From Candidatus Saccharimonadota bacterium (GTDB lineage: Bacteria > Patescibacteriota > Saccharimonadia > Saccharimonadales > Saccharimonadaceae), in assembly GCA_017531585.1 (NCBI GenBank), contig JAFXKT010000005.1, forward strand, positions 1-43,684: a DNA stretch of 43,684 nt, in the 5' to 3' direction. Made by a program: the position numbers and the translations under genes. The notes under the pieces were generated by a model. It was not told the origin of the DNA. It saw nothing but the letters and a program-made list of their open reading frames with translations, and did not search any database. The first letter of the stretch is position 1, and each line of letters opens with the position of its first letter. Below are positions 11,249 to 17,416 of this stretch, one piece after another.

Positions 11249-13753
11249 TTATAATTCCCTCTCCACAATCTCGTCCGCCTCTTCACGAGTAACAGTCGTA
11301 TCAAAGAGACCAACCATCTGACCTTCGTTAGCGGCGCGACCGCCAGCATACTCGAGAGAAGCATCCTCAAAGCGGCGGAACTGCGCAATCGCAGCATTAA
11401 GCTCCGTCTGATTGAATGCGCCAACTTCGCACATCATATCGAACTCACGAATCGTCAAACCTGTAACCTTAGTAAATAATTCTGGCTCAATGTTGCGAAT
11501 TACATCCACAAGCGCCTGCTCACGATAATCCGTCAAGTACATAAAGACCGGGATACGCTTAATGAACTGGTAGAGCTTTTCGCGAAGCTGTTTCTTGAAG
11601 CTAGCCTGCTCCTTTTCTTTCTCCTTGATTTCTTTCTTTTCCTCGTCGGTTGCATCGCGGCCTTCCTCGGCAATCTTGCGCTTCGTTTCCTTTAGCGCCT
11701 TCTCGCGCGAGATAGTCTTGCTCAAATCGCCACGAAGATTGCGGAATGCCTCGATCTTTTCAAGAGCCGCCAATAGCTCCGCATTATTCAAAATCTTCTC
11801 TAGAACCACCGTCGTAGTATCGACCAAACGAGGCGATTGCCAGCGTCGAGCCAACATCGTCGACGCGGTGCCATAGGTCGAGATATCCAAAATCTCATTC
11901 GCGTTTAGTTTCTGCATTTGATGGCCGTCATAACAAAGAATCGGCAAGAAATGAATAAATTCATCCAAGCGCTCTTCTGGGCGACGTTTATCACCAACAG
12001 AACCAAGTACATTACTGTAATCTGCAACCAACTTCAGAGCGCGGCTTGGTGCGAAGTCTAGGACATAGCAGGTTTCCTTGAGGACATCTTTCTTCATCGG
12101 ATCCTCGGCGTCGCGCATCGTCCATGGACTTTGCGCACGGAAAGCCGTCTGGAAATACGTTTCAGGAACATCAGTATTGCGCAAGAATAAGACGCCACTC
12201 CATGCTGAGACTGTTACACCGGTCGTAAGCTTACCGCAAGATAAAGTAATTGTATGGGTCGACAAACCATCGCGAATCGCATTTTCTACTGGACCCTTAG
12301 CCTCTTTGCCGCCAGGAGTATCACTGCCGGCCGCGCGAATAATCTTATAGCTACTGAAGAATGAATCATTTTTAAGCATCTTCTCCATTGCGCAGCAAGC
12401 ACCAACTGTCGGCAAATACCAGAAAGTATGCCTCAGTGAAGACAAAAGACGTGCATCTTCAAACGGTAAGGCTGGCGCCTTGTGATCGAAACGATTCTCG
12501 ACTTCAACCTCCAAATCTACGCCATGTAGAATATTTAGGAATTTTTGCACGAAATCTTCGCGTTCAAACTTCCATTCACCATCAACTTTTTTAGCTGAGA
12601 AGAATTTATTAAGATCAAACTCATTAAACTCGCCCTGCATCGCAACTTCGCGCAGTTTTTCTGGCATTTGGTAGGTCAGCATTACGATTTGCGGCAAATC
12701 TCGGTACGGGTTTTCGCCCTCGCCATGCCACTTGGCTTTTTCGCGCTGCTCGTCAGCATAGGTCCAGTCAAAAATCTGGTCTTCCGAGAACTCACCTTCA
12801 GTCAATGCGCGAAATGGCGTACCAGAAAGATAGAGGAAGCTCTTGGCGTGAATTGGAAGAGTCTTTTCAATCTCTTCTGCTTCGTCATAATTGGATGGCA
12901 TGTTATCTACTTTGTCGTCTTCACCAGTCAATTCCTTTGCGGAATCTCGCCAGGCACCAAAGTGATACTCGTCAACATAGATGCTATCCCACTCGATTTC
13001 ATGCATCTTTTGATGGCGTGCCTTGATTTCGCCGTTTAAACCTTTGCCGAGCACATCCTGATAGCTTGCAAACCAAACCACTGGGCGAGAATCGTCGATT
13101 TCGTTCTCGTTCCAAGTATTAAGGCCTTCGATAAATTGCCAACCATCAAAATCTTGATGACCATAAAGATCCTTCATCCATTCTTTTTCGACGCCAGGTT
13201 TATAGGTAAGAACCAAAATGCGAGTCCAGCCCATTCTTTTGGCGAGCTGGTAAGAGGTAAAGGTTTTACCAAAGCGCATCTTGGCGTTCCAGAGAAAGCG
13301 AGGCGGCTCAGCTTCGCCAATATGCTTTTCGAAGTAGGCCGAGGTTTGCTCGACTGCGGCTTGCTGCTCTGGGCGCATCGAGAAGTTAGCCTTGTTATTG
13401 CTAGATTCTGGGCGGCCATTTTTAATGCCAGTAATGACAGATTTTACGGTTTCAATATCCGTATCAAACCATTCGCCAGCAAGGCGCTTAACACCAAGCT
13501 TTTCGAGCCATTTGTGGACTAGATGATCCTTAAAGAATTCACCAGAGTTTGTAATAGCCAGCTCGTAGTGCTCGATTTTATACTGCGGATTAGGCGTATT
13601 TACTAAGCCCTCTTCGATGCGTTCTTTGACAGCATCAAAATCTTGCCCCGTCTTAGAAGCGCGCTCCGTATAGCCAACCTTCAAGCCCGGCTGATTTGGC
13701 GAACTATAGACGTAGATTTGCGGGCGTTTTTGATAAGATAGTAGATTGGACAT
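11249..13753 (-). CDS. GIY-YIG (T5orf172-type) nuclease-SF2 helicase, restriction subunit
   Basis: This 834-residue fusion starts with a T5orf172/GIY-YIG-type domain (about 10-100). It has QIYVYSSPNQPGLKVGYT, then a conserved Glu-His pattern GEFFKDHLVHKWL and GEWFD. A superfamily 2 helicase follows: NAKMRFGKTFTS (156-167, variant Walker A), VDEYH (DEAH-like motif II, about 260) and LSGTPFRAL (motif III). Later parts carry the FRAQSPW-type motif VI region and a charged coiled coil (about 690-730). Nuclease plus ATP-dependent translocase plus the neighbouring methylase looks like a restriction enzyme. The start is 2 nt after the preceding stop, so it is translationally coupled. Confidence 0.85.
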   Translation of the reverse strand: MSNLLSYQKRPQIYVYSSPNQPGLKVGYTERASKTGQDFDAVKERIEEGLVNTPNPQYKIEHYELAITNSGEFFKDHLVHKWLEKLGVKRLAGEWFDTDIETVKSVITGIKNGRPESSNNKANFSMRPEQQAAVEQTSAYFEKHIGEAEPPRFLWNAKMRFGKTFTSYQLAKRMGWTRILVLTYKPGVEKEWMKDLYGHQDFDGWQFIEGLNTWNENEIDDSRPVVWFASYQDVLGKGLNGEIKARHQKMHEIEWDSIYVDEYHFGAWRDSAKELTGEDDKVDNMPSNYDEAEEIEKTLPIHAKSFLYLSGTPFRALTEGEFSEDQIFDWTYADEQREKAKWHGEGENPYRDLPQIVMLTYQMPEKLREVAMQGEFNEFDLNKFFSAKKVDGEWKFEREDFVQKFLNILHGVDLEVEVENRFDHKAPALPFEDARLLSSLRHTFWYLPTVGACCAMEKMLKNDSFFSSYKIIRAAGSDTPGGKEAKGPVENAIRDGLSTHTITLSCGKLTTGVTVSAWSGVLFLRNTDVPETYFQTAFRAQSPWTMRDAEDPMKKDVLKETCYVLDFAPSRALKLVADYSNVLGSVGDKRRPEERLDEFIHFLPILCYDGHQMQKLNANEILDISTYGTASTMLARRWQSPRLVDTTTVVLEKILNNAELLAALEKIEAFRNLRGDLSKTISREKALKETKRKIAEEGRDATDEEKKEIKEKEKEQASFKKQLREKLYQFIKRIPVFMYLTDYREQALVDVIRNIEPELFTKVTGLTIREFDMMCEVGAFNQTELNAAIAQFRRFEDASLEYAGGRAANEGQMVGLFDTTVTREEADEIVEREL

Positions 13754-14303: not shown

Positions 14304-15830
14304 TTACATCTCCTTAATCATAGACTCGATATAAGCTTGCTCGTCGGGCGTTATATCATAACGGTCATAAAGTTTTTCGTCAGTCCAAGCCTGAGTCATC
14401 GTTAAATCCGGCACAAGCGCGTAAACCTTCGAGGTAGTATCTTGAGTTACTTTGCGAAGTAATACAAGAAACCTAAAGAAACGAGTCGTAATATAAGAAA
14501 CAAAATTCTTCGCTTCTTCTTCCGAGTCAAAGGATTTTACAACAATATAAGTTTCCGTACATACAGAACCAGGTTCAGCTATCGTTGGATAGGTTAGCAC
14601 CCTATTCGGCAGTGTCCCCAAACCTTCATTAGCCTTAGGTAACAATACTTTCCACTTACTGACAAGATTTTCGCCAACCCAAACCCTAGTTTTCAGAACA
14701 TAGCCAGTCTTCTTGTTGGCGTAAATCTTATATTTGTCTGGATTATTAATATCGTCAAAATCCGAAAAATTCGTAGCTAAACCAAACGGCTTACGCGAAG
14801 ATACTACCTTGTCCAAAGTCGACTCATGGCGCGCCTGTACTTTTCTCAAAATAGGGATCGCCTCATTCCAACGGATAAGCGTATCGTATTCGTCCAAGCG
14901 GCGCTTCATAGTCGAGGCCTCTTCGTTTCCTATGATTGTTGTAATTTCGCAGTCGCCATCGTAAGCTCTTTCCCAAATAAAGTAGTTTACGCCACCCTTA
15001 ATCTCAACACCAGGAAAACAGTCGTTAGCATCAGGATAGTCCACTATCTTCTTAATATGCCTATCATGAAGCATCTCATCACGGAATTCGTCGAGCCCCT
15101 TACCGCCAGCAAACCAGCGAGACGGAACAATAAATGCCAGATAGCGAGGATTAAGACTTTTAGCTTGACGAATAAAGAAATGATAAATAGGGGCTGCACT
15201 CGCACCATTTCCGCCATCATTGAGCTGGTAAGGCGGATTTCCAACAATAACATCAAATTTCATAGTTTTTATCTCCTCTGGCGTTAAGTGAATAAAGTTA
15301 TAGGCATGGCGCTCGCGCGTTTCGTCGCGATCAAGCTCGCCGTTTTCTTTGTTACCGCAATAAATACAGCTGCCGCCGCGGTAAGTGTGTGGGCGGTTAT
15401 CGTAAGATATATTGCCGTTCGCATCGTTAAAATGCGCAATAGACTTCTCGCCATTTGCATTTTTGGAAGTATAGACGCTGCGGCGGCTCATAAGCGCCGT
15501 CAAATCCGTCAAAGCAATACCATAAAGCATATTCTTAAAAATATGATCGCGGCGATCGTCTTCATTCGGAAACTCGTCATGAAGCCCAACCATGAGACGC
15601 TTTGCGATTTGGCGCAAGAAAATACCAGTCTTACATGCCGGATCGAGCCACTTTAAACTCGAATCATGCCAGACTTCCTCCGGAAATAGGTCTAGAACCT
15701 TATCTACTAGCTCTGGTGGCGTAAAAACCTCGTCACTAGACAAGTTTGCTATACAATCCAGGATGTCCGGAACGTGTCCACCGTTTACTAGGCGCGTAAA
15801 TAAGTTCACCTTTTGCGGTTTATTCTCCAT
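14304..15830 (-). CDS. Eco57I-like N6-adenine DNA methyltransferase
   Basis: I choose M at 15830 (MENKPQKVN...) because GGGAGG lies about 8 nt upstream; an earlier ATG at 15875 lacks an SD. The 508 residues have the AdoMet-binding motif I LDPACKTGIFLRQI, with FTPPELVDK before it, and catalytic motif IV VIVGNPPYQ, the D/NPPY signature of adenine-N6 methylases. A CxxC pair (CIYCGNKE) sits between them. The C-terminal half is a probable target-recognition region. The start overlaps the zinc-finger gene by 11 nt. It probably protects host DNA from the helicase-nuclease. Confidence 0.88.
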   Translation of the reverse strand: MENKPQKVNLFTRLVNGGHVPDILDCIANLSSDEVFTPPELVDKVLDLFPEEVWHDSSLKWLDPACKTGIFLRQIAKRLMVGLHDEFPNEDDRRDHIFKNMLYGIALTDLTALMSRRSVYTSKNANGEKSIAHFNDANGNISYDNRPHTYRGGSCIYCGNKENGELDRDETRERHAYNFIHLTPEEIKTMKFDVIVGNPPYQLNDGGNGASAAPIYHFFIRQAKSLNPRYLAFIVPSRWFAGGKGLDEFRDEMLHDRHIKKIVDYPDANDCFPGVEIKGGVNYFIWERAYDGDCEITTIIGNEEASTMKRRLDEYDTLIRWNEAIPILRKVQARHESTLDKVVSSRKPFGLATNFSDFDDINNPDKYKIYANKKTGYVLKTRVWVGENLVSKWKVLLPKANEGLGTLPNRVLTYPTIAEPGSVCTETYIVVKSFDSEEEAKNFVSYITTRFFRFLVLLRKVTQDTTSKVYALVPDLTMTQAWTDEKLYDRYDITPDEQAYIESMIKEM

Positions 15831-16323
15831 ATTCAGAGCCTCCCGAAATACTGCCCGATAGTGAATGTGAGCCACTTTTTAATTTAAAATGCCGTTCTAA
15901 GAGAGAGCGTACCTGTCCTGGATCAGATATCTCTGTTAACTGATTTATTAATTCGGAAGTCGTTTTCTCTTTCTCTATAGCGCGTCGGTCGCGAGCATAT
16001 CTAGCATTTTGAGCTTTTCTACGATTACGAAACTCTTCGTCTTCGTGGTAGCGCTTACGAATATATCCATTGTGCAAATCTAGAAAATATCTCTTCCTGC
16101 ACTCTTCAGAACAAAAACCTGGCGCCCTCCCTCTAGTTTTTACCTGGTATGCAAAAGCTTTTCCGCAAACCTTACAGATCGATTGTTTTTCCTTACCAGA
16201 TCGAACACGATGTTCGTTTCTACATTCCTCAGAACAGAACTTTGGCATTCTTCCCACTCCGCCTTTTTCGTAGCTAAAGCTTTTCCCACACCTTTCGCAC
16301 TGGAGTATTACTTTATTCTCCAT
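15820..16323 (-). CDS. Protein with two tandem zinc fingers
   Basis: The product has 167 residues. The N-terminal 75 are two copies of a C-x2-C-GK-x-F-x-Y...FCSEEC module (about 9-35 and 50-77), each with four cysteines that can bind zinc. A basic helical stretch (RKRYHEDEEFRNRRKAQNARYARDRR) and a Ser/Gly-rich tail follow. The design suggests DNA or RNA binding; it could regulate the operon or help target recognition. GGAG lies 9 nt before ATG. Both of its boundaries overlap a neighbour by 11 nt at the same sequence, ATGGAGAATAA, suggesting insertion by duplication of the junction. Confidence 0.75.
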   Translation of the reverse strand: MENKVILQCERCGKSFSYEKGGVGRMPKFCSEECRNEHRVRSGKEKQSICKVCGKAFAYQVKTRGRAPGFCSEECRKRYFLDLHNGYIRKRYHEDEEFRNRRKAQNARYARDRRAIEKEKTTSELINQLTEISDPGQVRSLLERHFKLKSGSHSLSGSISGGSEYGE

Positions 16324-16909
16324 TCCTCATCTCCTTGTAGGATACCGTTGGGTAATCCTTGATTGCTTTATCGATTCCAGCCTCCATATCTGTCAGCGCA
16401 TAAACACGGCGTTTGAACAGACCTTTGGCGGGGGTTGAATATTCAGTGAAAAATACTTTGTCCTTACCGTTTAACATGTCGCCAACAATTAGGTTGGTCT
16501 CCATGATTGCGTTCATAGCTAGCAAGAACTCCTTTGAGGATTTCTTCGGTAAATAATCAAAAATGACGCCTTGGAGGCGTTTCTTACATTCAGAGATGTT
16601 ATCTTCGGCAATATCTACACCATAAATCGTCGACAAAACTTTAAGAACCGAGAATTCGCGATTCTTTTTATGCCACTCGATTTTGTCTTGTTTTAGATGA
16701 TCAAGGCGCTGGCGTAAAATAGCTTCAAGAAAGTTACCATTGCCACAAGCTGGCTCCAAAAAGCGCCAGTAGCGGTTCGAGGTAGCCTGAGTTAAAGCGA
16801 GGATATTATTTACCTCGCGCTCGGCAGTAAAAACCTCACCGCGATCGCGGACGCGGCTTTTGGATTTAACTTGTTTCTGCTTCGCACTAGACGAAGCCTT
16901 GGCTTTCAT
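16313..16909 (-). CDS. Partial N6-adenine methylase-like protein lacking the catalytic motif
   Basis: The product has 198 residues. It contains EVFTAEREVNNIL, motif I FLEPACGNGNFLEAIL (about 50-65), GVDIAEDNI (motif II region) and NLIVGDML (motif III region). It stops before any NPPY motif. It therefore could bind AdoMet but not transfer methyl groups alone. It may be a regulatory partner of the full methylase, or the front half of a split enzyme. It is the first gene of the operon. The ATG is directly preceded by a hairpin arm (16917-16910) and has no clear SD outside that structure. Confidence 0.75.
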   Translation of the reverse strand: MKAKASSSAKQKQVKSKSRVRDRGEVFTAEREVNNILALTQATSNRYWRFLEPACGNGNFLEAILRQRLDHLKQDKIEWHKKNREFSVLKVLSTIYGVDIAEDNISECKKRLQGVIFDYLPKKSSKEFLLAMNAIMETNLIVGDMLNGKDKVFFTEYSTPAKGLFKRRVYALTDMEAGIDKAIKDYPTVSYKEMRNGE

Positions 16910-16949
16910 CTCTGTTGCACTTTCTTACAACAGAGATGGCGTTAGTAAC

Positions 16950-16974
16950 AAAAATAGGACACAACCGTGTCCTA
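16950..16974 (-). terminator. Leader terminator of the R-M operon
   Basis: On the minus strand TAGGACAC-GGTT-GTGTCCTA (16974-16955) is followed by TTTTTG. It lies between the operon promoter and the first long gene, so transcription can stop about 190 nt after initiation. Confidence 0.7.
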
Positions 16975-17028
16975 CACATTCAAGAAAATAAAGTATAGAT
17001 TAGGACGTCCCGGCTGAGTCCTAATCAT
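16972..17028 (-). CDS. Candidate leader peptide 2 of the R-M operon
   Basis: The 18-codon ORF MIRTQPGRPNLYFIFLNV starts at an ATGA overlap with leader peptide 1. It spans complementary segments B and C and stops inside the first arm of the leader terminator. The position is that of an attenuator leader peptide. Translation is not shown. Confidence 0.35.
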   Translation of the reverse strand: MIRTQPGRPNLYFIFLNV

Positions 17029-17048
17029 TTTACAACAGAGACATACAT
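17025..17048 (-). CDS. Candidate leader peptide 1 of the R-M operon
   Basis: The seven-codon ORF MYVSVVK is preceded by AATAAGG and ends in TGA overlapping the ATG of leader peptide 2. It covers leader segment E (17041-17029). Confidence 0.3.
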   Translation of the reverse strand: MYVSVVK

Positions 17049-17224
17049 CCTTATTGTCCGAGACGCCCAAATCTATGTACGTCTCGGCAGAAAGACTACG
17101 CCTCTGCGCTTATTCTGTTGTAAATTTAAATTTTGATTAGGACTCTTTAATTATACCAGAGATTACAAGATATTGCAAAATATTTATGGTATTTGTCAAT
17201 AATGTTTTAGATAGAGGCTAACTT

Positions 17225-17416
17225 TTATCTGCCGACGCACATAAAAATCGCAGCCCCTAAGTTGCCGGCTGGAACCTACAATTTCCGCGTATTAGGCAAA
17301 AACTATAAGACCGACTCCTATAGGAGCTGCGATTCAAAGTTTTTGCGAAACACGAAAAACGCGTTCTCTAAAACGCGGTTAAGAAAATTCAAATTGTAGA
17401 TTCCTCTTATATTATA
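17225..17416 (-). ncRNA. Unclassified structured RNA with pseudoknot potential
   Basis: Extended -10 TGGTATAAT (TATAAT 17416-17411) starts an RNA near 17404. Three long helices are possible: P1 (17399-17391 with 17284-17276, 9 bp), P2 (17346-17338 with 17304-17296, 9 bp) and P3 (17334-17321 with 17259-17246, 14 bp with one G-U). P3 crosses P1 and P2, so they form a pseudoknot or are alternatives. P3's last arm is followed by TTTTTAT. Separate hairpins AACGCG and CTCC-TATA-GGAG also exist. No match to RNase P, tmRNA, SRP or 6S signatures that I know. Confidence 0.6.

Follow-up and report, generated by a model that had tools for sequence, protein, structure and literature searches.

The leader in front of a restriction-modification (R-M) operon in a Candidatus Saccharimonadota genome probably acts in cis as a transcription attenuator combined with a start-codon lock at R-M genes, as suggested by its sequence. 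The leader lies in the window, the whole 43,684-nt stretch of DNA analyzed here, and a leader family across Saccharibacteria that is previously uncatalogued follows the same plan. Computational comparison showed that the alternative pairings of the leaders, namely A with B (helix P1), the proposed antiterminator strand (aT) with the terminator 3' arm, and the terminator hairpin itself, are conserved and covary.

Architecture of the window leader

All segments named in the first-pass annotation (A to F, a terminator at 16974-16955 with its U tract, and the start-codon arm) were located on the minus strand (Table 1), and the 5' end of the transcript was predicted at A from the promoter position. 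An intrinsic terminator was present between promoter and gene as annotated, with a canonical hairpin T2 and a further hairpin T1 that has a weak tail. Since aT is complementary to C, the B-C hairpin was recognized as the first terminator-like hairpin (T1) and the terminator of the annotation as the second (T2). The reported repetition of E by F, which pairs with the ATG arm, was also found, with E:G as an additional possibility. The leader RNA folded with a z-score of -7.9 against dinucleotide shuffles, none of the 200 shuffles being equally stable. Its strongest competing pairing, overlooked in the annotation, joined aT to C and the C flank over 19 nt (-27.0 kcal/mol), and the P1 state was 4.6 kcal/mol more stable than B-C as computed at the first terminator.

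Table 1. Features of the R-M locus and its leaders in the window, in order of transcription.
Feature	Position	Strand	Remarks
Orphan leader	17243..17416	-	same plan, geneless; directly upstream of the studied promoter
Orphan leader parts	-10 17416-17411; A 17404-17391; aT 17334-17323; B 17284-17271; terminator 17271-17251 + tail	-	
Predicted promoter	17150..17179	-	-35-like TTTGCA 17179-17174; extended -10 TG..TATAAT 17155-17150
A	17134..17145	-	RNA 5' end (predicted), 5' strand of closing helix P1; A:B -17.7 kcal/mol
D	17114..17124	-	P2 5' strand; copied at the start codon (G)
P2b	17087..17107	-	small hairpin, GCAGA..TCTGC
P3	17058..17087	-	hairpin, CCGAGACG/CGTCTCGG
aT	17058..17077	-	P3 loop + 3' strand; proposed antiterminator strand, complementary to C + flank
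uORFs of the first-pass annotation	17048-17025 and 17028-16972	-	not conserved as a class feature
E	17029..17041	-	P2 3' strand; alternative partner is start-codon arm G
B	17016..17027	-	P1 3' strand, also 5' arm of terminator-like hairpin T1
T1	16982..17026	-	B-C hairpin, then T-rich non-canonical tail TATACTTTATTTTCTT
C	16998..17006 (extended match 17013-16995)	-	T1 3' arm, aT target
T2	16949..16974	-	canonical intrinsic terminator TAGGACAC/GTGTCCTA + TTTTTG
F	16925..16936	-	E copy, hairpin with G
G	16907..16917	-	start-codon arm CAACAGAGATG, last three bases are ATG; partners F or E
First operon gene	16313..16909	-	198-aa N6-MTase-like protein
Second protein	15820..16323	-	167 aa, no assigned family, Cys-rich N-terminus
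Methyltransferase	14304..15875	-	Eco57I-type N6 methyltransferase, 523 aa
Restriction protein	11249..13753	-	834-aa T5orf172 / type IIG-like

Comparison with homologous leaders gave a mixed outcome for the annotated scheme. In the nearest homologue (L009) the aT:C pairing was retained through paired substitutions (-22.2 kcal/mol), P2b was built from other bases (GACAGA/TCTGTC), and the T2 arms were altered on both sides (CAGGACGC/GCGTCCTG). The kept pairings support the annotated idea of a switching, attenuator-type leader, in that complementary segments are retained in relatives despite sequence change. Its particular wiring fared worse, with B:C weakening from -11.6 in the window to -6.5 in L009 and the pairing by which C was to disrupt the terminator arm of T2 shrinking likewise, whereas aT:C persists.

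The annotation had further read the leader as classical leader-peptide attenuation, in which translation or stalling on two uORFs would choose between A-B and B-C. The uORFs in the window are linked by ATGA and cross E, B, and C, and uORF1 is identical in L009, yet uORF2 has shifted frame there and stops outside the terminator arm. Among 35 leaders, ATG uORFs occurred in 22 compared with 21.7 expected from shuffles, those with an SD-like site in 2 compared with 2.4, and uORFs are missing from many leaders that show the full plan. These chance-level counts rule out a leader peptide as a feature of the class and make ribosome stalling unlikely as a general trigger, such that ribosome-mediated attenuation as an explanation of the leaders was considered very improbable.

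The window leader is divergent: covariance model R1 failed to recover it (partial match, E 0.22), its T1 tail is non-canonical, and B:C is weak in L009. Its placement in the family rests on the shared plan and on leader L196. The latter precedes an EcoRI-type MTase and has segments A, D, E, F, and G of the window type next to aT and a canonical terminator, thereby connecting the window type to the main class. The orphan leader (Table 1), a complete copy of the plan, is homologous to the leaders of the N4/N6 MTases L064 and L067. It may have been left behind by an R-M gene since replaced, or it may provide tandem control.

Genes downstream of the leaders

The window belongs to a genome of 1.01 Mb in six contigs. 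Besides the proteins in Table 1, the operon encodes a small protein between the Eco57I-type methylase and the 834-aa restriction protein, and no HTH controller (C) protein family was identified among the operon proteins scanned. The R-M genes behind leaders across the collection included Eco57I-type, EcoRI-type, C5, and N4/N6 MTases and a Tsp45I restriction enzyme. Other leaders preceded a type IV secretion pilin, surface proteins with Fib_succ_major or Listeria-Bacteroides repeats, and DUF4352, DUF4190-like, and NHL proteins. The element is therefore not specific to R-M operons, since the same leaders also precede envelope and secretion genes.

Distribution of the shared plan

The shared plan starts at TATAAT, followed about 6 nt on by A, whose partner in helix P1 is B, located 100-140 nt downstream. 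The interior holds P2, often the small hairpin P2b (predicted in 22 of the 35 leaders), and then P3, whose apical loop bears aT and has a rather constant length of about 25 nt. The plan ends in an intrinsic terminator with a 5' arm that shares 3-5 nt with B in most leaders and 9-11 nt in the window, and with a 3' arm and U tract complementary to aT.

Within the own genome, a DNA search returned a 26-nt promoter-plus-A match at another locus, where a leader of the same design and different sequence (L007:9018-9200) precedes genes for a C5/N4-N6 MTase fusion and, after it, an HNH protein. A detector for the plan run on 444 kb of this genome gave 5 matches with strong aT compared with 0.2 in shuffles. 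These 5 fell at three loci, namely the tandem pair of leaders in the window, the second R-M operon, and C5:42182 (two overlapping matches) in front of a gene without assigned function.

Protein searches identified leaders at graded distances before homologous family MTases (L009, L010, L013, L014, L016, L017, L018, L020, and L021), the leader being absent before the homologous MTases L011, L012, and L019. Searches of the C5 and N4/N6 MTase families added L052, L053, L054, L056, L059, L063, and others. A relaxed pattern representing one sequence class (TATAAT-N6-GTCTTA...TAAGACA) gave 34 matches in 32 of 394 family genomes and 0 with the reversed-pattern control. A tighter pattern searched across 84,980 species returned 27 stretches, nearly all from (Candidatus) Saccharibacteria, of which the matches L127 and L137 have no terminator and are probably due to chance. 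The contigs that carry leaders L122 and L121 bear the labels Acutalibacter sp. 1XD8-33 and Nomurabacteria and are probably contaminant or mislabelled Saccharibacteria DNA.

Covariance-model matches, obtained with a model that did not include the promoter, carried TATAAT or a near match 6 nt before P1 and extended to another family of the same order and to one genome of another class. In this other class of the phylum, leader L190 (G399:C9:7451-7586) stands before a gene resembling a type IIG R-M protein. Viral contigs yielded six pattern matches, none with the plan, and no match to the window's own promoter-plus-A string, ruling out a viral origin. An Rfam scan of the window and 18 loci (E<=1) returned only tRNA, rRNA, LOOT, and two sub-threshold chance matches; a known RNA family was thus rejected, LOOT being merely a neighbour of a leader. 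This LOOT RNA (RF03000, L095:2755-2872) lies about 1 kb downstream of the leader and before a small membrane-protein gene.

Conservation of pairing

Pairing strength was specific to each leader. Across 35 leaders, P1 strands paired at -18.4 kcal/mol with their own partner compared with -7.4 kcal/mol across leaders and the inner helices at -23.7 compared with -12.3 kcal/mol, each with 0 of 10,000 permutations as extreme, although the leaders share ancestry and the permutation counts overstate their independence. With aT not pre-selected, the inner region paired with its own terminator 3' arm at -15.3 kcal/mol and with those of other leaders at -10.1 kcal/mol, and for most of the leaders examined aT outperformed shuffled inner regions, with z between about -3 and -5. 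Chance inverted repeats were ruled out by the fold z-score, the own-genome shuffle counts, and this self-versus-cross pairing.

Compensatory changes were counted at anchored positions because P1-P3 misalign under MAFFT, the same reason why RNAalifold on the MAFFT alignment recovered the aT:terminator pairing alone. Outside the GTCTTA class, P1 was 99% paired compared with 47% for shuffled partners, with changes on both sides in 9 of 9 pairs. The pairing of aT with the terminator 3' arm covaried at positions 7-9, where C-G/G-C and A-U/U-A/G-C alternate, and these positions extend beyond the terminator stem such that the terminator does not explain their covariation. A separate pair count gave a covariation score of 0.372 compared with 0.157 for shuffled pairs and 0.14 or less when slid. 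The predominance of G-U pairs at P1 position 10 (15/23) and aT position 5 (18/23) points to pairing as RNA rather than DNA.

A model in which the two inner arms match in length was not supported, as their lengths were not positively correlated. The fixed letters in A1 mostly correspond to the search pattern, aT, and the terminator. In many leaders (e.g., L093, L094, L102, and L131) the P3 loop contains a recurrent A-rich AAACAGT-like stretch after aT, which could be a binding site or the groove strand of a pseudoknot.

Constant leaders and apparently exchanged genes

A leader of about 280 nt was 89-99% identical in eight genomes with differing flanks. For most genome pairs the homology sets in no more than about 10 nt before the -10 box, and where the downstream MTases are unrelated it ends at the start codon. 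R-M genes appear to have been exchanged behind a constant leader. The loci of this leader are L099, L100, and L105-L110, and L164-L171; the sole in-frame start in the group is apparently ATA, after AGGAGG. At L083, L089, and L090 (L172-L174), a leader that is 99-100% identical over 193 nt stands before dissimilar surface-protein genes, and the upstream flanks are just 80-95% identical.

Such sharp boundaries would also fit a DNA-level element, such as a site of recombination or a small inverted-repeat mobile element that shuttles gene cassettes, and the nested repeats looked MITE-like at first. The conserved block, however, extends from the promoter as far as the start codon and has its terminator at a fixed place, G-U is the prevailing pair at two positions, unrelated sequence classes have the same plan, and viral contigs with the element were not found. 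Mobile-element termini were rejected on the promoter, the terminator, and the G-U pairs, which argue for an RNA. Homologous recombination between regulatory modules would likewise yield constant leaders with swapped genes. A DNA-level function was regarded as highly unlikely.

Proposed start-codon lock at R-M genes

At R-M genes the start site can be sequestered by a leader strand that has alternative partners. In 15 R-M leaders the start region paired with its own B/terminator 5' arm at -13.4 compared with -7.6 for those of other leaders (0 of 5000 permutations), while 13 non-R-M leaders had no such start-region complementarity (-5.5 own compared with -6.1 other). The window uses E and F against ATG arm G for this lock (E:G and F:G), and the same start hairpin occurs in L196.

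Segments of A or of the terminator 3' arm recur in R-M start regions, and leader strands could consequently bind the start region in trans. The terminated leader might then be a trans-acting RNA on the start region of its own mRNA, providing dosage feedback with the attenuator as its source. This was judged improbable, as in the released RNA the complementary strand (B/terminator 5' arm) would already be engaged in P1 or the terminator, pairing in cis is simpler, and the non-R-M leaders do not have the match.

Proposed mechanism

We propose that A, at the RNA 5' end, and B would close a long hairpin domain whose inner hairpin loop carries aT. In the OFF state the terminator hairpin would form and transcription would stop after about 130-190 nt. 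In the ON state P1 would hold the overlapping strand while aT pairs with the terminator 3' arm and U tract, allowing read-through. R-M genes would be locked a second time, because their start region is complementary to this switching strand (B/terminator 5' arm, or E in the window), and the start codon should consequently be masked in a read-through RNA that no longer has P1 or P2. We infer this assignment of ON and OFF states, including start-codon hiding. P1 would be the ON determinant in this scheme, although P1 and most terminators can coexist thermodynamically where their overlap is only 3 nt. Pairing of aT with the terminator arm beside a complete P1-P2-P3 would, in the structural model, need a folded-back junction. 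The arrangement would presumably serve low basal expression of accessory genes.

The leader may alternatively be a sensor in which P1-P2-P3 and the loop-tail pairing form a receptor that, once stabilized by a ligand or an RNA-binding protein, switches the terminator, as in a riboswitch. The layout of aptamer plus expression platform, the recurrence of P2b, and the near-constant P3 loop are compatible with a receptor, and the service of unrelated genes by one leader is what a shared signal would predict. On the other hand, no conserved unpaired core was seen among the leaders, in which sequence varies freely throughout the helices and at most loop bases, and no Rfam riboswitch matched; a receptor was considered possible but less likely. 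Control of the proposed attenuator would most likely be by an intrinsic or kinetic set point rather than by a dedicated ligand.

In a broader and more tentative reading, to which we give somewhat less than even weight, the leaders would form a new class of RNA switch that preserves base pairing and hardly any sequence and that acts as a general governor of accessory genes, a landing module for R-M genes, and an R-M-specific start-codon lock. The class would span Saccharibacteria and at least one other class and cover R-M, surface, and secretion genes, with R-M genes swapped at the start codon.

Significance and comparison with known systems

R-M genes are toxic when mis-expressed and, to our knowledge, the mechanisms described for tuning them once transferred are chiefly C proteins, MTase feedback, and antisense RNA. 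A leader that gates transcription and start-codon access would add another route of R-M control. Saccharibacteria have very small genomes and we know of little work on their gene regulation; a recurrent RNA element before R-M, pilin, and surface-protein genes provides a concrete and testable handle on it. The family seems to have been missed because pairing is kept rather than sequence, suggesting that similar families may exist elsewhere in the phylum.

Terminator/antiterminator attenuators such as trp/his leaders, T-boxes, and riboswitch platforms resemble the leaders in their mutually exclusive hairpins, intrinsic terminator, and 5' position. The present leaders differ in having no leader peptide, tRNA-binding or known aptamer signature, or Rfam match, and in that the RNA 5' end makes the closing helix and a hairpin loop carries the antiterminator strand. 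Repeated complementary segments, one of which hides a methyltransferase start site, are shared with the erm translational attenuators. The latter depend on a drug-stalled ribosome at a leader ORF, whereas the present leaders have a terminator and no conserved uORFs, and their genes encode DNA methyltransferases or envelope proteins. The LOOT RNA (RF03000) is a structured RNA from the same kind of genome that differs from the leaders in fold and sequence.

Known R-M control includes C proteins, MTase self-repression, and the antisense RNA of EcoRI/Eco29kI (PMC3874152), and reviews of R-M regulation cover C proteins, MTase repression, and antisense RNA (PMC3874152, PMC12707154). The relevant passages of these two reviews make no mention of an attenuator leader, in line with the first-pass remark that such attenuation was not known to be described for R-M operons. 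Searches of open-access literature for attenuator leaders in R-M operons or Saccharibacteria returned nothing relevant, with an earlier description elsewhere being possible. The leader resembles the known systems in that it would limit and time the expression of toxic R-M genes and differs from them in that, with no controller-protein family found in the operon, control would be exerted by a cis-acting folded leader.
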